Below are positions 48,968-64,000 of a stretch of 64,000 nucleotides of DNA, piece by piece. Source of the stretch: Alkalihalobacillus sp. AL-G (lineage in GTDB: Bacteria > Bacillota > Bacilli > Bacillales > Fictibacillaceae). The notes below the pieces were generated by a model that saw only the letters and a program-made list of their open reading frames with translations, was not told the DNA's origin and ran no database searches. A program made the translations under genes and the position numbers. The first letter of the stretch is position 1. Every line of letters begins with the position of its first letter. Location: the NCBI RefSeq assembly GCF_030643805.1, contig NZ_CP094656.1, positions 1,984,001 to 2,048,000 on the forward strand, read 5' to 3'.

Positions 48968-50044
48968 ATGAGTGGTCAAGAAACAGTTCCGATAGTCTCG
49001 CTTCAATCATGTAATTTAAACGACTATCACCTGATCGATGTTCGGTCTCCAGGTGAATTTGAAGAGTTTCATATTGACGAAGCCTATAATCTCCCTATTT
49101 TCACAAATATGGAGCGGGCTGAAGTCGGAACTACCTATAAACAAATTGGAAAAGAAGAGGCGAAGGAGCTCGGTCTTTCAATCGTGTCTCCGAAGCTGTC
49201 AGATATGTTCAAAGAGCTTAATACACTTAATGAGAAAGATCAAAAACCTTATCTCATCTACTGTGCACGTGGTGGGATGAGAAGTAAAAGTGTCGCTACT
49301 GTCATGAAAATGATGGGGTTGTCATGTTTCCAACTCGAAGGTGGAATTCGGTCCTACCGTAAACAAATCGTCAATTCACTTGACTATTTTAGTGGTCTCC
49401 ATAAGCCATTCATTGTTCTGGAGGGATTGACTGGGACGCGTAAGACCGATTACTTGGAAATTTTGCAGGAAGAAGGCTATCCGGTCTTAAACCTTGAACA
49501 GATGGCGGGACACCGAGGTTCGATTTTTGGACAAGTTGGGATCGAAGGACGTTCGCAAAAAGAATTCGAACAAGCTCTCGTTCACCGATTACAACAATTA
49601 GAGAAGACTCCTTATTATATCATCGAATCGGAAAGTAAACGGATTGGCCGGGTTCGTGTTCCAGACTGGATTTTAAATGGAAAAGATCAAGGACATCGGA
49701 TTCACATCACTTATCCTTTCGAGGACCGTGTGGATTACATTTGTGAGGTCTATCAGCCAGAATGTTATCGCGAGGAAATCGGTCAAGCCGTTACAAAGCT
49801 TCGAAAACGGCTGAAGCCTGAGGTTGCTGAGACGGTCATGGAAGCATTTGAACGAAATGACTACAAAGAAATTGTTAGACAACTGTTGAAATACTATTAC
49901 GACCCAAGATACGACCATGCTGCCCAAAGCTATCGATCTTCTGTTACCGAATTATCTATAGAGCATTTCGAAACAGGACTTTCCGAAATTAAAACAATAA
50001 TCGAGCAGATGAAAGTCGATTTAGAGCCAGTAAGAACGAATTAG
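48968..50044 (+). CDS. mnmH: tRNA 2-selenouridine synthase MnmH (SelU)
   Basis: A 358-residue enzyme that replaces sulfur by selenium at the wobble 2-thiouridine of tRNA, using selenophosphate and a geranylated intermediate. An N-terminal rhodanese domain (DVRSPGEFEEFHIDEAYNLP) has the catalytic Cys in LIYCARGGMRSKS, followed by a P-loop domain whose Walker A reads EGLTGTRKTD; the usual G before K is Arg. The enzyme needs SelD, encoded about 12 kb downstream. It probably stands alone: the yneF terminator lies upstream and a 72-bp gap follows. Confidence 0.94.
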   Translation: MSGQETVPIVSLQSCNLNDYHLIDVRSPGEFEEFHIDEAYNLPIFTNMERAEVGTTYKQIGKEEAKELGLSIVSPKLSDMFKELNTLNEKDQKPYLIYCARGGMRSKSVATVMKMMGLSCFQLEGGIRSYRKQIVNSLDYFSGLHKPFIVLEGLTGTRKTDYLEILQEEGYPVLNLEQMAGHRGSIFGQVGIEGRSQKEFEQALVHRLQQLEKTPYYIIESESKRIGRVRVPDWILNGKDQGHRIHITYPFEDRVDYICEVYQPECYREEIGQAVTKLRKRLKPEVAETVMEAFERNDYKEIVRQLLKYYYDPRYDHAAQSYRSSVTELSIEHFETGLSEIKTIIEQMKVDLEPVRTN

Positions 50045-56185: not shown

Positions 56186-56282
56186 TGGCGGGACTGTGTG
56201 GGAATCGAACCCACCAGAGACGGCACGCGCCTCCCAAGAGGTTTTGAAGACCTAGGTAAGCACCAGCTACACAACCAGCCCC
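56186..56282 (-). tRNA. selC: tRNA-Sec (anticodon UCA)
   Basis: On the minus strand a 97-nt tRNA folds: acceptor GGGGCTG/CAGTCCC, anticodon arm AGGT-CTTCAAA-ACCT with anticodon TCA, a long variable arm beginning GGGAGGC and T arm GTGGG-TTCGATT-CCCAC, with G discriminator and encoded CCA. The long acceptor/variable arms and UCA anticodon identify tRNA-Sec. The eighth acceptor pair is G-A rather than Watson-Crick. It is charged with Ser, converted by SelA, and delivered by SelB, both encoded nearby. Confidence 0.93.
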
Positions 56283-56332: not shown

Positions 56333-56497
56333 ATTAAACGAATTCTAAATGTGAAAATGGAAAATCAAACAGAAAATTGTAAAAATGTGTTGAGGACTAT
56401 AGTCATCAATTGTTGCCTTTCTAGTTGCAATTGCTTGATTCTCTTAACGCATGTGGATAAAGTTAAAGGAGAATCTTCGAGACAGTAGGTGAGTAGC

Positions 56498-58426
56498 ATG
56501 CCCGATACATTTTTTACGATTGGTATGGCGGGTCATATCGATCATGGGAAAACGGCGTTGACAAAGGCATTGACGAATATAGATACGGACCGGTTGAAAG
56601 AAGAAAAGGAACGAAGCATTTCAATTGAGCCGGGATTTGCGCCAATTGAACTTGGTGATGGGTACAATGTTTCAATCATAGATGTACCCGGTCATGAAAA
56701 ATTCATTCGACAGATGATTGCTGGTGTGGCAGGAATTGATCTTGTTATATTAGTTGTGGCTGGTGATGAAGGTGTGATGCCGCAGACGAAAGAACATGTG
56801 GAAATCCTTAATTATTTAGGTATCGAACATGCGGTTATCACTGTGACGAAAAAGGACAAGGTTGATCCGGAAATGCTGGATCTTGTAACGGAAGACATCC
56901 AAACCGAGTTGACTGGATCAGTATTGGAACATGCACCGCTTTATTTTGTTGACAGTATATCTAAAACAGGGATAGAAGATCTAATAAGTGGAATCAAGCA
57001 AACTTTACCTAAAGTGTCAAAACGGAATGCAGCCTCCCCGTTTCGTATGCCAATAGATCAATCGTTTACATTGCGGGGAAAAGGGGCGATTGTAAGAGGG
57101 ACAGTCTTTGATGGGACTGTACAGGAAGGTGATTCACTCACTTTACTTCCTCAGAACAAGACTGTTCGAGTAAAACAGCTACAAGTACATAAACAAAACG
57201 TTCATAAAGCCGTTGCAGGTCAGCGGACAGCTATTAATCTCGGTGGTATCACGGCTGGTGCAATAGATCGAGGGGACATTCTGACGAAAAATTCAACCGT
57301 TACTCCCAGCAAAACGATCGATCTCGTTTTAAACGTACAAGATGTCCCTGAACATCCATTAAAACAGCGATCACGAGTTAAATTCCATACAGGAACATCT
57401 GAAGTAATGGGAACAATTGTATTTTTTGACCGTAATGAGTTGACTGAATCAACAACAGATGAAGTCCTTTGCCAGATCCGTTTAGATGAACCAGTAGCGG
57501 TGATGAGAGAGGATCGGTTTATTGTACGGAGACCTTCACCCGTTGAAACGATTGGTGGCGGATGGATACTCAATCCACATGGTGCTAAGTACAGGTTTGG
57601 ACAAGGTACTATTGATACACTAAAACAGAAAAAAGAAGGCACACCTGAGGAAAGGATAATAAGCACTCTTGAGAAAATGAAACTCGCTACAATAGAGGAT
57701 ATTAGTAAAGAAGTGGGTGAACCGAGACAAGAAATAGAAACGAATATTGTTTCTTTACTGGATCAAAACAAGGTGATCTCGCTGAACGCAACTTCCTATG
57801 CTTTAGTTGAAGGTTTAATCCGAGTAAGTGAATGGTTGACTCAGGAACTAATGGAGTATCATCACCAGTATCCAATGCGGACCGGACGCCAAAAAGCAGA
57901 AATTGTACAGGAATTGAAAGGACAACTCCCAACATTGCTTATCGAATTTGTCATCGAACAGCTCAAAACAGACCAGAAGATCCGAAAAGAGGGTCCTCTC
58001 CTTTCTATGTATAATCACAAACCGTCCTACCCTGAAAAGTGGCAGAAACGGTTTAGAAATGTCGTTGAACAATTGAAAAATGCAGGGATAAAACATGAAG
58101 GACTACGATCCATATTTGATCAACAATCGATTCCAGAAGAATACTATTCAGAGTTTGAAAACTATTTACTTGAAACCGGAAGTGTAATCGTAATGGAAGA
58201 TAGTACATTCGTGCATCGCAATGTTTTTGTCGATACGATAGAAAAGCTGCATAATCATGTCCCAAATCTTTTTACTGTGCAAGATGCAAAGTCTATCCTT
58301 GATCTTTCGCGAAAGTACTGCATTATGCTGCTTGAAAAGATGGATGATCTAGGTGTTACGGTTCGGGTCGAAAATGAACGAAAGTGGGTGCCTCATAAAC
58401 TTGACTCATACATCTCTAGAAAGTAA
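56498..58426 (+). CDS. selB: Selenocysteine-specific elongation factor SelB
   Basis: A 642-residue GTPase that carries Sec-tRNA-Sec to UGA codons marked by a SECIS hairpin. The EF-Tu-like domains show G1 GMAGHIDHGKTALTKAL, G3 DVPGHEKF, a TKKDK segment at the G4 position and Sec-specific FTLRGKGAIVRGTVF; the C-terminal half contains repeated winged-helix domains that bind SECIS RNA in SelB. ATG at 56498 follows AGGTG by 7 nt; a GTG at 56489 is less well placed. It is the first gene of a tight operon with a glycosyltransferase and an ABC transporter. Confidence 0.96.
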   Translation: MPDTFFTIGMAGHIDHGKTALTKALTNIDTDRLKEEKERSISIEPGFAPIELGDGYNVSIIDVPGHEKFIRQMIAGVAGIDLVILVVAGDEGVMPQTKEHVEILNYLGIEHAVITVTKKDKVDPEMLDLVTEDIQTELTGSVLEHAPLYFVDSISKTGIEDLISGIKQTLPKVSKRNAASPFRMPIDQSFTLRGKGAIVRGTVFDGTVQEGDSLTLLPQNKTVRVKQLQVHKQNVHKAVAGQRTAINLGGITAGAIDRGDILTKNSTVTPSKTIDLVLNVQDVPEHPLKQRSRVKFHTGTSEVMGTIVFFDRNELTESTTDEVLCQIRLDEPVAVMREDRFIVRRPSPVETIGGGWILNPHGAKYRFGQGTIDTLKQKKEGTPEERIISTLEKMKLATIEDISKEVGEPRQEIETNIVSLLDQNKVISLNATSYALVEGLIRVSEWLTQELMEYHHQYPMRTGRQKAEIVQELKGQLPTLLIEFVIEQLKTDQKIRKEGPLLSMYNHKPSYPEKWQKRFRNVVEQLKNAGIKHEGLRSIFDQQSIPEEYYSEFENYLLETGSVIVMEDSTFVHRNVFVDTIEKLHNHVPNLFTVQDAKSILDLSRKYCIMLLEKMDDLGVTVRVENERKWVPHKLDSYISRK

Positions 58427-59444
58427 ACAAACTAGAATTGGTTTTTGGACCCCATATTTAAAAAGCAAACGGGGAAACTCAACGACAGCATTGAGAATTG
58501 TCACTGGTCTTCGGGGAGCAGGCTATGATGTAGAAGTATTTTCATACGAAGAGGAAACGTGGAATAAAGAAAGTATAGAACGGATGGGCACTTGTGATCT
58601 TTTTCATATTTTGCATTTTTATCGCTTTTCAATGTGGCAAATCCATAATGGTTTTGGTTTAACCAAGCCTTATGTGGTTACTTCGGGTGGAACCGATGTC
58701 CATCAAAATATCCACAATCCTGATCAAAGGGAGCAAATGAATGCACTTCTCAACAACGCAAGTGCGATTACTGTATTTACGAAAGATGCAGCCACCGTTG
58801 TTGAAGATGTTTATCCTAGCGCACGAGGGAGCATATCAGTGATTCCGCAAAGTGTTTGGCTGCCGGAAAGGACCAATTATCAAGGGTTACAACTTGAATC
58901 CGGTTTTCCGAAACTACTGCTCCCGGCAGGACTTCGATCAGTGAAAGATGTTTTTTATGTTTTTGGAGCATTAAAGTTGCTACAAACCCGCTATCCTATG
59001 ATAAAATTTACTATCGTCGGAGAGTCTTTAGAAGAAGATATATTGCGAGAAGTTAAAACTCATGAAGAGGCTTATCCTTGGTTCCGTTACATAAGTGGCA
59101 TTCCGCTAGGAGCTATGCATCAAATGTATGAATGGGCAGATGTCGTCATTAATACCTCGATAACTGAGGGGCAGCCACTTGCTTTAATGGAAGCGATGGC
59201 CTTCGGGGTGCCTGTTTTAGCGAGGGATAATGCAGGTAATCGTAGTTTGGTTGATGACGGTGCAGATGGTCTAATGTTTTGTAATCCTAGTGAATTTACG
59301 GAGCAATTTGTAAGGTTGATTGATGATGAAAAGTTATATAAGGACATATCTAGCCATGCAAAAGATAAGGCAAGTAGTAAGTTTAGCTTAGATTTTGAAA
59401 TCAAACAATATGAAGAGAAGTACAAATTAATAAGAGGTGTATGA
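58401..59444 (+). CDS. GT4-type glycosyltransferase, SenB-like (candidate selenosugar synthase)
   Basis: A roughly 347-residue GT-B glycosyltransferase. N-terminal KSKRGNSTTALRIVTGLRGA, a GGTDVHQNI segment, LLLPAGLRSVKDVFYVFGAL and the GT4 motif EGQPLALMEAMAFG (E-x7-E). The order GN-x-TAL, GTD, LRxVKD recalls SenB, which joins selenophosphate to a UDP-sugar in selenoneine biosynthesis; this resemblance is from memory and untested. It overlaps the end of selB and is 1 bp before the binding-protein gene, so selenium-related function is inferred from context. Start uncertain: TTG 58401 or ATG 58374. Confidence 0.7.
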   Translation: MTHTSLESKQTRIGFWTPYLKSKRGNSTTALRIVTGLRGAGYDVEVFSYEEETWNKESIERMGTCDLFHILHFYRFSMWQIHNGFGLTKPYVVTSGGTDVHQNIHNPDQREQMNALLNNASAITVFTKDAATVVEDVYPSARGSISVIPQSVWLPERTNYQGLQLESGFPKLLLPAGLRSVKDVFYVFGALKLLQTRYPMIKFTIVGESLEEDILREVKTHEEAYPWFRYISGIPLGAMHQMYEWADVVINTSITEGQPLALMEAMAFGVPVLARDNAGNRSLVDDGADGLMFCNPSEFTEQFVRLIDDEKLYKDISSHAKDKASSKFSLDFEIKQYEEKYKLIRGV

Positions 59445-59445
59445 G

Positions 59446-60342
59446 ATGAAAAAGGTTACGAGTATTTTATTTGCAGTTATATTGTTGGTTGCACTTGCGG
59501 CTTGTGGTGGAGGAAACTCAGATGGTGCAAGCGGTGACGGTGATAAGGAAAAGCTGACCATCGGCGTCATTCCTGCACAGACCGAAGGGGAGATGCAGGG
59601 GGCGATGGATAAGCTTCAAAAGCTTTTATCCGATGAACTAGATCGTTCTGTATCGATTGAAACCTACCCGGATTATAACGGTGTCGTGGAAGCGATGAAC
59701 TATGACAATATCGATATGGCGTTCTTTGGACCACTCACCTATGTTATTGCTCATGAAAAAAGTGGTGCAAAAGCAATCATCACGCAGCTTGTCGATGGGG
59801 AACCGTTTTACCATTCGTTTATGATCACTCACAAAGATACACCCTATGAATCCTTAGATGATATTGTGAAAAATAGTAAAAAAGTCGATTTTGCTTTTGG
59901 TGACCCAAGTTCAACCTCTGGTTCATTGATTCCGAGTATTGAATTAAAGGATCGTGGAGTGTACACGTCTCAAAGCGACCATGAGTTTAAAACGATTCGT
60001 TTCACAGGTTCTCATGATGCGACAGCATTATCAATACAAAATCAGGAAGTAACCGTAGGTGCGATTGACAGTGCCATCTATAATCAGCTTGTCGAATCGG
60101 GAAAGATTAAGGGAGACAAGCTTAAAGTCATCTGGAAATCGGAAGAATTGTTCCAATACCCGTGGGCTGTTAACAAAAACATGGACGAAGACCTGATCAA
60201 AAAACTTCAGAACATATTTGTCGATATAAAAGACGAAGAAATTTTAAATGCCTTTGGAGCATCTGGATTTACGAAAGCAAGCAACGAGGATTACGCAAGT
60301 ATCCGAAAGGCAGCAGTCAAGCAGGGCATTATTAAGGAGTAG
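59446..60342 (+). CDS. PhnD-type ABC transporter substrate-binding lipoprotein
   Basis: A 298-residue lipoprotein. Signal peptide MKKVTSILFAVILLVALAAC with lipobox LAAC, a short Gly/Asp/Ser linker, then a PhnD/phosphonate-binding fold (LTIGVIPAQTEGEMQGAMDKL; AMNYDNIDMAFFGPLTYVIA; DFAFGDPSSTSGSLIPS; VGAIDSAIYNQL). PhnD-family proteins bind phosphonate, phosphite or related oxyanions; the ligand here cannot be read from sequence. ATG at 59446 follows GAGGTG. Lying in an operon with selB, it is a candidate for uptake of a selenium compound. Confidence 0.86.
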   Translation: MKKVTSILFAVILLVALAACGGGNSDGASGDGDKEKLTIGVIPAQTEGEMQGAMDKLQKLLSDELDRSVSIETYPDYNGVVEAMNYDNIDMAFFGPLTYVIAHEKSGAKAIITQLVDGEPFYHSFMITHKDTPYESLDDIVKNSKKVDFAFGDPSSTSGSLIPSIELKDRGVYTSQSDHEFKTIRFTGSHDATALSIQNQEVTVGAIDSAIYNQLVESGKIKGDKLKVIWKSEELFQYPWAVNKNMDEDLIKKLQNIFVDIKDEEILNAFGASGFTKASNEDYASIRKAAVKQGIIKE

Positions 60343-60350
60343 AGGCGGCC

Positions 60351-61109
60351 ATGGTTTGGTTTAAGCGACGTCACCTGATAATTGGAATCATCCTGATCCT
60401 TTTCATTAATCAAAGTATGAAGGCGACAGAATTCGAACTCTCGAAATTTGAAAACTTTTATAATATGATTGAATTTTTATCTGGATGGTTCCCGTTGAAT
60501 ATGGAAATTTTTCCTGACATGGTCGTGGAGAGTCTTGACACGTTGGCGATGGCATTTTTGGGGAGCCTGCTCGGTCTTGTTCTAGCGTTACCATTAAGTT
60601 TTATGGCGGCTCGGAATACGAGCCGTTTCCGTTTTTTATACGGATTTATGAGAATCGGATTAAGTTTTTTACGTTCGGTTCCTGAAATTGTGTTTGGTCT
60701 TATTTTCTTAACAGCACTTGGACTTGGGCCGTTCCCAGCGGTACTTGCCATCGTTTTACATAATGTAGGGGTACTCGGTAAGCTTATCTCCGAACTGATT
60801 GAGGCAGCTGATGACGGTCCGCAGGATGCGATGAAATCAGTCGGTGCAAGAAGATGGATTGCCAACCTGTTTGCCATTCTTCCACAAATTTGGCCGAATG
60901 TATTATCCCACTATTTTTACCGTTTTGAGGTTGCGATTCGTACCTCACTGATCCTCGGGTTCATCGGTGGCGGAGGAATCGGTCAACAGCTCTTTATTCA
61001 CTTTAAAATTTTTGCCTATCCATCCGTTGCAGTCGATGTTCTATTGATCATGATCATGGTCGTCGTCGTGGATTTTGTCGGTAGTAAAATCAGAGAAATG
61101 GTGATCTGA
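60351..61109 (+). CDS. PhnE-type ABC transporter permease
   Basis: A 252-residue permease with about six helices. The inner-loop EAA motif is ELIEAADDGPQDAMKSVGAR, and the C-terminal LILGFIGGGGIGQQLF is typical of PhnE. Starts 9 bp after the binding-protein gene with GAGGCGG in front and overlaps the ATPase gene by one base (TGATG). A single permease probably forms a homodimer. Confidence 0.9.
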   Translation: MVWFKRRHLIIGIILILFINQSMKATEFELSKFENFYNMIEFLSGWFPLNMEIFPDMVVESLDTLAMAFLGSLLGLVLALPLSFMAARNTSRFRFLYGFMRIGLSFLRSVPEIVFGLIFLTALGLGPFPAVLAIVLHNVGVLGKLISELIEAADDGPQDAMKSVGARRWIANLFAILPQIWPNVLSHYFYRFEVAIRTSLILGFIGGGGIGQQLFIHFKIFAYPSVAVDVLLIMIMVVVVDFVGSKIREMVI

Positions 61110-61867
61110 TGAAGCGAGAACCAGTAATAAAAGTGAAAAATTTAACGGTACGTTATTTACGAGCTAAGACGGACGCCCTTTCAGAGGTCGACATCGAGCT
61201 TCATGAGGGTGAATTCATATGTGTACTTGGAAAGAGCGGGGCAGGTAAATCGACGTTGATCCGTTGCTTGAATGGACTTCAAAAGCCTACAGTAGGTCAT
61301 GTCTTTTATAATGGTAATGATATAACCGTCTATGGTGAAGAAGAACTTCGAAAGGTTCGAACGGAAATGGGGATGATTTTTCAGCATTTCAACCTGATTC
61401 CCCGCTTGTCGGTCATGCAAAATGTTTTAACGGGTACATTCGGGAAACGTCCTGATTGGAAGAATCTGCTCGGACTGTTTACAAAAAACGAGTGTTCTGA
61501 GGCGATTAGCCTTATTGAGGAAGTGGGACTCAGTGATCATGTCCGTCAGCGGGTCGAGCATTTGAGCGGCGGACAGAAGCAGAGGGTAGCGATTGCTCGT
61601 GCACTGATCCAAAGTCCACAGGTATTTCTAGGTGATGAACCGGTTGCTAGTCTTGACCCTGGAACAGCAAATCGGATTTTTCAGATTCTAGGTCGAATTC
61701 ATGAAGAACATCAATTACTGACCTTGATCAATGTACATGATGTTGTGATTGCGAAACGGTATGCTTCAAGAATTTTAGCGTTAAAAGAGGGATCGCTCAT
61801 TTTCGATGGCACTGCAGATGACCTGACCGAAGATATATTAGAGGAAATTTATGAAGAAAGAGGATGA
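61109..61867 (+). CDS. PhnC-type ABC transporter ATPase
   Basis: A 252-residue ATPase. Walker A GKSGAGKSTLIRCLNGL, Q-loop IFQHFNLIPRLSV, signature HLSGGQKQRVAIARAL, Walker B VFLGDEPVASLDP and H-loop LINVHDV. The FNLIPRLSV region and the overall plan are those of PhnC. Last gene of selB-GT-phnDEC; its stop lies in the terminator stem shared with convergent selD. Confidence 0.92.
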   Translation: MKREPVIKVKNLTVRYLRAKTDALSEVDIELHEGEFICVLGKSGAGKSTLIRCLNGLQKPTVGHVFYNGNDITVYGEEELRKVRTEMGMIFQHFNLIPRLSVMQNVLTGTFGKRPDWKNLLGLFTKNECSEAISLIEEVGLSDHVRQRVEHLSGGQKQRVAIARALIQSPQVFLGDEPVASLDPGTANRIFQILGRIHEEHQLLTLINVHDVVIAKRYASRILALKEGSLIFDGTADDLTEDILEEIYEERG

Positions 61868-61907: not shown

Positions 61908-62960
61908 CTATTTACTTGCGTATAAGTAGCATTCTTGTTTTTCCGTAACTTTTCCGATGATTGATGTATCGGTGTTTCCTTTATCGTGCATGACCTTTAC
62001 GTATTGTTCTGCTTCATCCATCGGCATGCTGATCAGTAAACCACCCGACGTAACGGCATCACATAGGATCCACTGTTTGATTTCGTCTAGTTCACTGTAC
62101 GCAACGCAATCTGAAATCCAACGATGATTCGCCTTCGTACCCCCAGGTACAACACCTTGTTCAGCAAGCTCCAAAGTGCCATCAAGGATTGGAACATTTG
62201 AAAATTGAACATGAATGGATACGTCACTGCCTTTCGCAATTTCAGACGCATGCCCTAACAGTCCGAAACCTGTTACATCCGTGACTGCGTTCGGATGGAA
62301 GTCCTCAAGTGACTCTGCAGCCGTTTTGTTGAGCTCTGCCATAACAGCTATCACCTTATCGTGCTGTTCTTCCGTTAGCTTCTCACCTTTGATCGCGGTT
62401 GTTTGCACCCCGACCCCAATTGGTTTCGTAAGGACGAGTGCATCTCCAGGTTTAGCACCCACATTTTTATAAACGTTTTCAGGGTGGACCAAACCGGTAA
62501 CAGATAACCCGAACTTCGGTTCTTGATCGTCGATCGAATGACCGCCAACGATAAGTGCTCCAGATTCCTTCACCTTATCTGCAGCGCCTTTTAAAATCTC
62601 AGCGAGCATGTCAGGACCTAATGATTTAATCGGATAGCCAAGAATGTTCATCACTGTTTTTGGCTTGCCACCCATCGCATACACGTCGCTCAATGAATTT
62701 GCAGCTGCAATTTGTCCGAACATATATGGATCATCAACAATCGGGGTGAAAAAGTCCACCGTTTGGATGATGGCAAGATCATCTGTGAGCTTATAGACTC
62801 CTGCGTCATCTGATGTATCTAATCCAACAAGCAGGTTGGGATCATGTTCTCGTTCAGGTAATTGACGCAAAACTTGCGCCAGGTCTTCAGGACCGATTTT
62901 ACAGCCTCAACCACCTTTTGAGGACAGTGTGGTAAGTCTTATCTTTTCTTCTTTTGACAT
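61908..62960 (-). CDS. selD: Selenide, water dikinase SelD, itself a selenoprotein (UGA at 62907-62909)
   Basis: Makes selenophosphate from selenide and ATP; 350 residues including selenocysteine. Translation from ATG 62960 (AGGAGG upstream) gives MSKEEKIRLTTLSSKGG, then UGA at codon 18, then GCKIGPEDLAQVLRQL. In homologues this active-site position is Cys or Sec (GGCGCK or GGUGCK), and the frame upstream is conserved SelD, so the UGA is read as Sec. Reading only from the later ATG at 62870 would lose the active site. Downstream of UGA, GGTC-CTGAA-GACC (complement of 62882-62894) may be the SECIS apex. Other motifs: DDAGVYKL, QTVDFFTPIVDDPY, GGHSIDD, TDVTGFGLLGHASE. Confidence 0.95.
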
Positions 62961-63096: not shown

Positions 63097-63333
63097 ATGA
63101 GCTACAAAGTTTCAGTAGAATTTTGCATGCAGTGAAACTATGCTCCTAAAGCCGCGAGTTTCGCGGAGGAACTATTTGATCGTTTCCGATCAGATGTAAC
63201 GACACTTGAGTTGATTCCAAGTTCAGGCGGTGCATTTGAAGTAACCGTAAATGGACAAAAGATTTATTCGAAGCTGGAAGCAGGCGAGTTTCCGGATTTC
63301 GAAAAGCTGTTTAACGAAATGGAACAAAGGTAA
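63097..63333 (+). CDS. SelW-like (Rdx family) selenoprotein, CxxU motif, UGA at 63133-63135
   Basis: A 78-residue thioredoxin-like protein of the SelT/SelW/SelH (Rdx) family. MSYKVSVEFCMQ-U-NYAPKAASFAEELF carries the CxxU redox motif at residues 10-13, where UGA encodes Sec; the frame then runs to TAA, with the family-typical SSGGAFEVTVNGQKIYSKLEAGEFPD. AAGGGAG precedes the ATG. A hairpin 22 nt after the UGA fits a bacterial SECIS. Location between selD and selA supports Sec insertion. Expected to act in thiol redox reactions; the partner is unknown. Confidence 0.93.
63144..63170 (+). promoter_or_regulatory. Candidate bacterial SECIS hairpin in the SelW-like gene
   Basis: Outer TCCT (63144-63147) pairs with AGGA (63167-63170), an AAAG bulge, then CCGCGA-GTT-TCGCGG (63152-63166). 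The apex is about 22 nt after the UGA, in the range for bSECIS elements. Confidence 0.65.
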
Positions 63334-63347
63334 CCGTTAGTGATTTG

Positions 63348-63399
63348 GGGATGATTCAAAATGGGGGCTGAGTGTCTCTGGAATTTGAATCATCCCTTT
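63348..63399 (+). terminator. Inverted repeat/terminator-like hairpin between SelW-like gene and selA
   Basis: A perfect 13-bp stem GGGATGATTCAAA / TTTGAATCATCCC with a 23-nt loop and a short T tail; may only partly stop transcription before selA. Confidence 0.6.
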
Positions 63400-63440
63400 C
63401 GTTCGCATTACCGGAAGACCTTACAGGAGGTCGATTTCAC

Positions 63441-64000
63441 GTGAAGAATTTATTGCAGGTGCTCCCAGCCGTACATACGATACAAGCAGATGAACGGTTT
63501 ACAGAGATTGTTAAGAACAGTTCGTTTTCAATAGAGGGTGCTACGAAAATCGTTCAGGAACAAATCGATCAGATTCGGTCGCAAATGTTAGAGGATCGAT
63601 GGGATGGCCCATTTACAAAGAAATTAATTACTGATGACTTGCTTGTAAAACTTGAAACTGAACTCATTTCACAGCAAACATCTCTTCGACCTATGATCAA
63701 TGCAACAGGTGTTATTTTACATACGAATCTTGGCAGGGCAAGACTTAGTGAGCGTGCGGTCCAACAGATGATAAGCGTCGCAAGGCATTATTCAAATTTG
63801 GAGTACGATATTGAAAAAGGTGGAAGGGGATCAAGGCATTCACTCGTGGAAGGCTTGCTTTGTGAAATAACAAGTGCCGAGGCTGCAATGGTCGTCAACA
63901 ATAATGCTGCGGCTGTTTTTCTGACGTTACGCTCACTTGCCCGTGAAAAAAGTGTCATCGTCTCACGAGGGGAGCTTGTTGAAATTGGAGGCTCGTTTCG
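63441..64000 (+). CDS. selA: L-seryl-tRNA(Sec) selenium transferase SelA, 3'-truncated by window edge
   Basis: PLP enzyme converting Ser-tRNA-Sec to Sec-tRNA-Sec with selenophosphate. Only the first 186 codons are present and the frame is open to the window end. Diagnostic segments: [38 protein letters not shown] and [16 protein letters not shown], all typical of SelA. GTG at 63441 is preceded by AGGAGG. The N-terminal domain ([15 protein letters not shown]) that binds tRNA-Sec is complete. Confidence 0.95.

Follow-up and report, generated by a model that had tools for sequence, protein, structure and literature searches.

Here, we describe a gene cluster of Alkalihalobacillus sp. AL-G (NZ_CP094656.1), lying within a window of 64,000 nucleotides (the whole stretch of DNA that was analysed), in which selB, a family 4 glycosyltransferase gene (GT) and phnD-, phnE- and phnC-like genes follow one another on the forward strand, with other genes of selenium metabolism nearby (Table 1). 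The packing of these five genes on one strand, as given in a preliminary description of this DNA, stands, but its spacing of 1-9 bp does not hold for selB and GT, whose overlap is 26-74 bp, the length varying with the choice of GT start. GT and phnD overlap by 8 bp or, from the alternative start, phnD begins 1 bp past the end of GT; a gap of 8 bp separates phnD from phnE, and phnE and phnC overlap by 1 bp. The sel genes were also said to continue on the other side, which is correct for selD, a SelW-like gene and selA, but since selD is on the reverse strand, convergent with the phnC side, these are neighbours and not one operon with the cluster. SelB, SelD and SelA all exceed their NCBIfam cut-offs (TIGR00475, TIGR00476, TIGR00474), the in-frame TGA (Sec) of selD is codon 18, and the SelW-like gene has a CxxU motif with an in-frame TGA. 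The mnmH/selU gene, 6.4 kb upstream of the cluster, encodes another user of selenophosphate.

Table 1. Features of the selB-GT-phnDEC cluster and its surroundings (positions are those of the window).
Feature	Position	Strand	Evidence
mnmH/selU, tRNA 2-selenouridine synthase	48968..50044	+	NF008750 354.8 bits
tRNA-Sec, anticodon TCA	56186..56282	-	ARAGORN; divergent from selB
selB	56489 (GTG) or 56498 (ATG)..58426	+	TIGR00475 354.6 bits, cut-off 242.25
GT4 glycosyltransferase (GT)	58353/58374/58401 (alternative starts)..59444	+	NF038229 and TIGR04348 scores (see text)
phnD-like lipoprotein binding protein	59437 (ATG alternative 59446)..60342	+	PF12974 245 bits
phnE-like permease	60351..61109	+	TIGR01097 247 bits, over cut-off
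phnC-like ATPase	61109..61867	+	TIGR02315 302 bits, over cut-off
selD, selenophosphate synthetase	61908..62960	-	TIGR00476 419.3 bits, TGA read as residue
SelW/Rdx-like selenoprotein	63097..63333	+	PF10262 79.6 bits, TIGR02174 71.1 bits, TGA read as residue
selA	63372..64000, runs past window (L008:11373-12839)	+	TIGR00474 561.2 bits

Conservation was assessed in two sets of loci, 60 from the order (of 81 found) and 80 named GT loci, with 20 loci in both. At the GT locus, selB is directly 5' of GT in 46/60 order and 34/80 named loci, phnD, phnE and phnC are all present in 41/60 and 56/80, and at least one of selA, selB and selD is present in 53/60 and 62/80, the opposite of clusters lying mainly with phosphonate catabolism, which the preliminary description had set out as the counter-case. 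None of the tested partner genes was found at 2/60 order and 8/80 named loci, and no selenium gene is annotated within 8 kb of a Streptomyces plasmid GT (34% identity). The arrangement is kept across genera and is therefore more than chance. A second architecture places selD directly 3' of GT. Matches to LysR occur at 16/60 order and 12/80 named GT loci, and all four of the LysR proteins tested beside GT, two of them from Methylomirabilota MAGs, score 297-335 bits against NF040786 (LysR_Sec_metab, a selenium regulator; cut-off 250); no LysR was seen in the cluster of this genome.

Co-occurrence with selenium genes was examined in 397 genomes of the order, with the presence lists of GT, selB and the phnD type matched by eye. 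SelB is over cut-off in 179 genomes, about half of which are without GT, while the GT family is found in 89, of which 88 have selB over cut-off and the remaining one (G203) has a selB cut by the contig end beside GT (locus L047). Genomes reached from the named loci, including Rokubacteria, Methylomirabilota and Thermincola, carry selB in 17 of 18 cases, although by coordinates at least three of these 18 repeat genomes among the 89. Reading the loci with neither selA nor selB beside GT as orphan-SelD genomes was rejected, as selB lies elsewhere in those genomes. The phnD type occurs in 99 genomes, 92 with selB and seven with selD but no selB, and all 99 are selenium users. These seven belong to one genus (g42), in which selD is present in 7/7 genomes with the phnD type and in 0/5 sampled congeners without it; their transporter is not beside selD, and no selA, selB, selD or selU match lies within 12-20 kb around it. 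The C-P lyase gene phnJ is present in 8/60 tested phnD-type genomes and was not found in this genome, and none of 11 neighbour clusters inspected by eye resembles phosphonate catabolism; on the phnJ distribution, a role of phnDEC in C-P lyase catabolism was rejected.

The binding protein passes only the broad subfamily model TIGR01098, and is below cut-off for both PhnD (TIGR03431, 211.9 bits, cut-off 261.1) and the 'putative selenate' binding proteins of TIGR04553 (174.1 bits, cut-off 250). The latter represents the same binding-protein family, under a name that already proposes a selenium oxyanion role, and scores 141-177 bits for four sel-type proteins compared to 79 for the second PhnD of this genome; the protein described here differs in its sub-cut-off score and in having its own phnE/phnC and selB beside it. 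Its best PDB match is the phosphite-binding protein PtxB (5o2j, 1.8e-43). Equivalents of the PtxB oxygen ligands and capping Tyr named in the available excerpts on PtxB (Y55, Y100, S130-T131-S132, H160 and cap Y208) are kept in 98/98 sel-type binding proteins (81 distinct), the capping Tyr being Y241 of the family, whereas D22, described there as holding this Tyr, is Ala, Ser or Val in 96/98. Further differences from PtxB are the family's own invariant residues D211 and W233 and its linkage to selenium genes. The protein was modelled with a mean pLDDT of 88.1. From these residues, the pocket is predicted to fit selenite, and phosphite equally.

That the transporter takes up phosphite or a small phosphonate, its proximity to sel genes reflecting shared regulation or old synteny, agrees with PtxB being the best solved relative, with the conserved ligands, with the NCBIfam models that class permease and ATPase as components of a phosphonate transporter and with the seven g42 genomes whose transporter lies apart from sel genes. 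This import is nonetheless disfavoured, and we consider it unlikely, given selenium use in every phnD-type genome, the tracking of selD within g42, the scarcity of phnJ, the lack of any phosphonate-catabolic cluster among the 11 inspected by eye, and a second phn-type operon in this genome. A small selenium oxyanion instead appears to suit the importer, with selenite the likeliest; in shape and charge selenite is close to phosphite, the ligand of the best solved relatives. Uptake of organic selenium (a selenosugar or methylseleninate), with GT recycling it, would account for a sugar-handling enzyme in the same operon, and PtxB-like pockets are described in the available excerpts as weakly admitting small R groups such as methylphosphonate; however, in PtxB the conserved capping Tyr closes a small pocket, which disfavours a sugar ligand and leaves this explanation quite improbable.

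GT is under the cut-off of every NCBIfam family matched, including NF038229 (234.9 bits, cut-off 400), SenB of the selenoneine pathway (TIGR04348, 90.7 bits, cut-off 300) and BshA (TIGR03999, 55.9 bits, cut-off 273.7). NF038229, the 'GPMC system family 4 glycosyltransferase', is the NCBIfam family that each of the 14 scored members matches best (226-366 bits), and no paper under the name 'GPMC system' was found in the openly licensed PMC literature; against TIGR04348, other entries of the GT family score 63-125 bits (13 entries, two of which are the same gene). GT is 24% identical to SenB, and profile comparison ranks SenB (8.2e-18) and BshA (8.7e-19) about equally. A SenB link thus rests on a few acceptor-site residues, mapped from sequence alone, with SenB numbering inferred via a Hydrogenophaga SenB and PDB chain offsets. 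Equivalents of SenB N20, T23, T85, D86, R155, K158, E231 and E239 are present in 41/41 and 59/59 GT members, of H58 in 36/41 and 51/59, and of R61 in 38/41 and 46/59. The window GT, whose AlphaFold model has a mean pLDDT of 93.8, keeps N20, T23, H58, R61, T85, R155 and K158. N20 or T23 is carried by 0/8 other GT4s of this genome, and among eight control GT4s the same letter occurs at H58 in two and at R61 in three. Differences from SenB include Gly at the T83 position (in the window GT and 31/41 members, with Thr in 10/41 and 24/59) and EGQ (41/41 and 56/59; EGQPLA in the window GT) where SenB has EGGAHV. Both genes lie near a selenophosphate synthetase gene, but GT is found with selB/selA and a transporter, and no SenA was recognised in the cluster at this locus. 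In a maximum-likelihood tree SenB falls inside the GT family, on a branch so long that the placement was not taken as evidence. GT is therefore proposed as a candidate Se-glycosyltransferase with a SenB-like acceptor site.

A possible partner enzyme is a CE4 deacetylase, which is encoded in 52/62 tested GT genomes (10/62 being without it) compared to 0/70 genomes without GT, and whose gene in this genome is not linked to the cluster. All 28 representatives have intact FDDGP/HxxxH motifs and no N-terminal hydrophobic stretch; the enzyme is probably cytosolic. A third biosynthetic partner was sought among the neighbours of the CE4 gene and set aside, as at the 21 loci compared no protein cluster other than CE4 occurred in more than six.

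GT and CE4 recall bacillithiol synthesis, in which BshA, likewise a GlcNAc-type GT4, is followed by a deacetylase, BshB, of the LmbE type. The pair might thus make a non-selenium metabolite, such as a thiol sugar or envelope precursor, that Sec-decoders happen to need, as the equal overall similarity of GT to BshA and SenB, the shared order of steps and the breadth of the GT4 and CE4 families would allow. GT itself being BshA was rejected, as BshA is encoded separately in this genome (TIGR03999, 573.7 bits), and the deacetylase here is of the CE4 type. A non-selenium product also fits poorly with selB in the 89 GT genomes (one cut by the contig end), SenB-type residues at N20, T23, H58 and R61 where BshA differs, selD directly 3' of GT in the second architecture and a selenium-type LysR beside GT, and appears rather unlikely.

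We prefer, with a probability of about 0.6, a selenium-supply module of Sec-decoding Bacillota that combines an oxyanion importer with a Se-glycosyltransferase/deacetylase pair. Gene arrangement, conservation, co-occurrence with selenium genes and active-site residues are observed, and from these we infer substrates and products. Selenium acquisition tied to Sec decoding, as first suggested for this locus, is supported by selenium use in 99/99 phnD-type genomes and the SenB-like GT, with the substrate as predicted above. In the supply module, the PhnD/E/C-like proteins would form an ABC importer for selenite, and the selenium would be reduced inside the cell. SelD is established to make selenophosphate, which, as is likewise established for these families, feeds Sec synthesis via SelA/SelB and selenouridine formation via MnmH/SelU. 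GT may then join selenophosphate to a UDP-sugar (probably UDP-GlcNAc) to yield a 1-selenosugar, as SenB does, and CE4, in most of these genomes, would remove the acetyl group to give selenoglucosamine, by analogy with the BshA/BshB steps. The pathway would end in a soluble selenol that serves as a selenium store or buffer or as a redox agent.

Reviews from 2022 and 2026 and a study from 2024 state, in the sections available, that a specific or high-affinity transporter for selenium has yet to be found (PMC9312934, PMC13188914, PMC11097638), and no paper in the openly licensed PMC literature, as far as its available text goes, was recognised as describing this cluster. More tentatively, and with somewhat less than even odds, the cluster may hold the first dedicated high-affinity prokaryotic selenium importer to be recognised, together with a selenium trait in which GT and a cytosolic CE4 make 1-selenoglucosamine, a selenol that stores selenium for Sec synthesis or works beside it. 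The importer is a concrete and widely conserved candidate, and its binding protein is open to expression and test. Should a selenosugar prove to be the product of GT, such chemistry would reach beyond the selenoneine pathway to Sec-decoding bacteria and suggest that their Sec decoding is coupled to a selenium pool of small molecules. Counting against a selenium importer, Methanococcus is reported in the available part of the 2024 study to have lost the use of no selenium source when five putative transporter loci under selenium regulation, one with a phosphonate-type permease, were deleted (PMC11097638). YedE was likewise predicted to be a transporter from selenium-gene context, but is described in the accessible portion of its report as a ten-helix membrane protein (PMC5322559), whereas the candidate here is an ABC importer with a binding protein.

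In Alkalihalobacillus sp. AL-G, whose genome around the window is one contig of 4.16 Mb (window at 1984001-2048000), selB is followed by a GT4 glycosyltransferase gene (GT) and a full phosphonate-class set of binding-protein, permease and ATPase genes (phnD, phnE and phnC), with selD converging on this run and a SelW/Rdx-like gene and selA lying beyond selD. The preliminary description had the run packed with overlaps or gaps of 1-9 bp, which holds for most of its length (at most 8 bp) but not for the selB-GT junction, where the two genes share 26-74 bp according to which GT start is used. A tRNA-Sec gene lies upstream on the opposite strand. SelD is N-terminally truncated in the ORF list because of its Sec codon, and an in-frame TGA hides the SelW/Rdx-like gene from routine ORF finding. 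Neither terminator-like sites (4 vs 5.8 in shuffles) nor promoter-like sites (10 vs 16.2 in shuffles) are in excess.

Features of the selenium-linked cluster and related loci in the same genome
Feature	Position	Strand	Remarks
selB-GT-phnDEC run	56489-61867 (window)	+	
selD	61908-62960 (window)	-	convergent on selB-GT-phnDEC; in-frame TGA = Sec, codon 18 (GGUGCKIG)
SelW/Rdx-like selenoprotein	63097-63333 (window)	+	between selD and selA; CxxU TGA (CMQ-Sec)
CE4 deacetylase	748371-748973 (genome)		1.3 Mb from the GT cluster
Second phn-type operon	G000:C1:873603-877340 (genome)		PhnD by score; ORFs resembling phnC and two phnE (L002, L009)

With the window GT as query, matches were obtained in 81 of 397 genomes of the order (1e-40), and 60 of these loci were fetched; a second set consisted of the best 80 of 431 confirmed GT relatives in named genomes, 20 loci being common to both. 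The nearest named relative among the matches listed is from Pseudalkalibacillus decolorationis (59% identity). In the order set, selB lies directly 5' of GT in 46/60 loci, selA, selB or selD is present in 53/60, phnD, phnE and phnC are all present in 41/60, and 2/60 have none of the tested partners. Among the best 80 of the 431 relatives, 62 loci contain selA, selB or selD, 56 the three phn genes, 34 a CE4 deacetylase gene and 8 no tested partner. Two layouts recur: selB-GT-(LysR)-phnDEC with a convergent selD and then selA, and GT-selD-phnDEC-CE4, frequently adjoined by a divergent selA/selB pair. Since the other 58 sequences of a 59-member GT alignment are 28-58% identical to the window GT, this conservation goes beyond mere close kinship. 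The arrangement noticed in the preliminary description is thus real and conserved, and a selenium role is well supported from context, with a probability of about 0.75 that the cluster has some such role. Its components are variants of known protein kinds, and a search of openly licensed texts brought up nothing recognisable as a description of the combination. A few GT matches (L011, L027, L031 and L038) read through a stop codon within the matched stretch.

LysR genes were matched in 16/60 order loci and in 12 of the best 80 of the 431 relatives. The four GT-adjoining LysR proteins that were scored, two of them from Methylomirabilota MAGs, all exceed the cut-off of 250 bits for the selenium metabolism-associated LysR family NF040786, with scores of 297-335 bits. 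LysR_Se was proposed from genome context (PMC5322559) and reportedly verified later (PMC9312934).

A profile built from 41 GTs detects the family in 89/397 genomes and 37/135 genera with clean separation (weakest member 1.3e-78, no further match at 1e-45). SelB is over cut-off in 179/397 genomes, including 88 of the 89 with GT (presence lists compared by eye), and in the 89th, G203, a selB next to GT is cut by the contig end (L047). The chance of drawing all 89 from the selB-positive set is ~3e-38, a naive figure overstated owing to relatedness. SelB was also found in 17 of 18 GT genomes reached from named loci, which were mostly picked for selB not adjoining GT, include Rokubacteria and Methylomirabilota MAGs, and duplicate members of the 89 in at least 3 cases (identical selB coordinates); the sole miss is a MAG (G399). 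In one Rokubacteria MAG, an FGE-sulfatase-domain gene directly upstream of GT (L148:709-1524) is a weak SenA match (76.9 bits vs cut-off 420). A Streptomyces plasmid GT (L181:7962-8975), 34% identical in the matched part, retains several of the SenB-like residues but carries ECS instead of EGQ, and none of the genes annotated within 8 kb of it is a selenium gene.

The sel-linked type of binding protein, detected with a profile of 21 sequences, occurs in 99/397 genomes (weakest 4.2e-122, no further match at 1e-60), and 92 of these have selB. The other seven all belong to one genus and lack selB, and selD is present in 7/7, compared with 0/5 sampled members of that genus without this binding protein (Fisher p 0.0013) and 11/75 other selB-negative genomes tested (80 of 218 selB-negative genomes sampled). 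The binding protein therefore tracks selenium use, beyond Sec alone. In this genus no sel gene was matched within the 12-20 kb fetched around phnDEC (L208-L214), and transporter and selD lie ~19-50 kb apart in the six genomes with both on one contig; other ABC-transporter ATPase genes adjoin phnDEC in several of these stretches. Of the 99 genomes with the sel-type protein, 60 were tested for the C-P lyase gene phnJ, which is present in 8; a search of the window's own genome did not find it. No sel linkage was seen within the 18 kb fetched around the second phn-type operon.

The best solved relatives of the window binding protein are phosphite-binding PtxB proteins. Pyramidal XO3 anions include selenite and also phosphite, and a PtxB-type pocket would, by its chemistry, suit such an anion. 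Selenite is proposed, with moderate confidence, as the transport substrate. Equivalents of the Te_PtxB pocket residues Y55, Y100, S130-T131-S132 and H160 and of the capping Y208, as given in PMC5700983, are invariant in 98 sequences (81 distinct), as are D211, S212, W233 and W243, whereas D22, which holds the cap in PtxB, is Ala, Ser or Val in 96/98. Four sel-type proteins score 141-177 bits on TIGR04553 ('putative selenate', NCBI), all below the cut-off of 250, and the second PhnD of the same genome scores 79 bits.

The best family for the window GT is NF038229 (235 bits, cut-off 400), followed by SenB TIGR04348 (90.7 bits, cut-off 300), and its overall profile similarity to SenB and BshA is about equal. 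The selenophosphate pocket of SenB is formed by N20, H58, R61, T83, T85 and R155, with K158 catalytic (PMC10891094). Mapped through a Hydrogenophaga SenB, the GT residues N35, T38, T107, D108, R188, K191, E265 and E273 match SenB and are identical in 41/41 and 59/59 GTs of two alignments; H81 (SenB H58) is kept in 36/41 and 51/59 and R84 (SenB R61) in 38/41 and 46/59, whereas the T83 position is Gly in 31/41 and 34/59. Because equivalents of R155, K158, E231 and E239 also occur in most other GT4s, and those of T85 and D86 in BshA, these are not diagnostic. Equivalents of N20 and T23 occur in 0/8 other GT4s of the genome, the same letter is found at H58 in 2/8 and at R61 in 3/8, and BshA, unlike SenB, lacks both of the latter. 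In a structure model of GT, N35 is predicted to start helix 1, R84 to lie in helix 3 and residues 105-108 to follow the fourth strand, a match by region to the parts named for SenB in PMC10702425. On balance, synthesis of a selenosugar by GT is slightly favoured.

The CE4 subfamily of the second layout was found in 52/62 GT genomes tested (weakest 6.9e-61), comprising 32/40 with the selB-GT layout, 20/20 of a second GT clade and 0/2 others, and in 0/70 genomes without GT (67 selB-positive, 3 selB-negative). The simplest reading is transfer of a GlcNAc-type sugar followed by deacetylation, a step that we suggest tentatively. No common neighbour was found around 21 CE4 copies, nearly all distant from GT, so the co-occurrence is not carried by synteny. 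The subfamily is tight (~200 residues; mean column identity 64%) and probably cytosolic, since 28 representatives, all with FDDGP and HxxxH motifs, have no N-terminal hydrophobic stretch; its members score at least 206 bits and other CE4s at most 156 bits.
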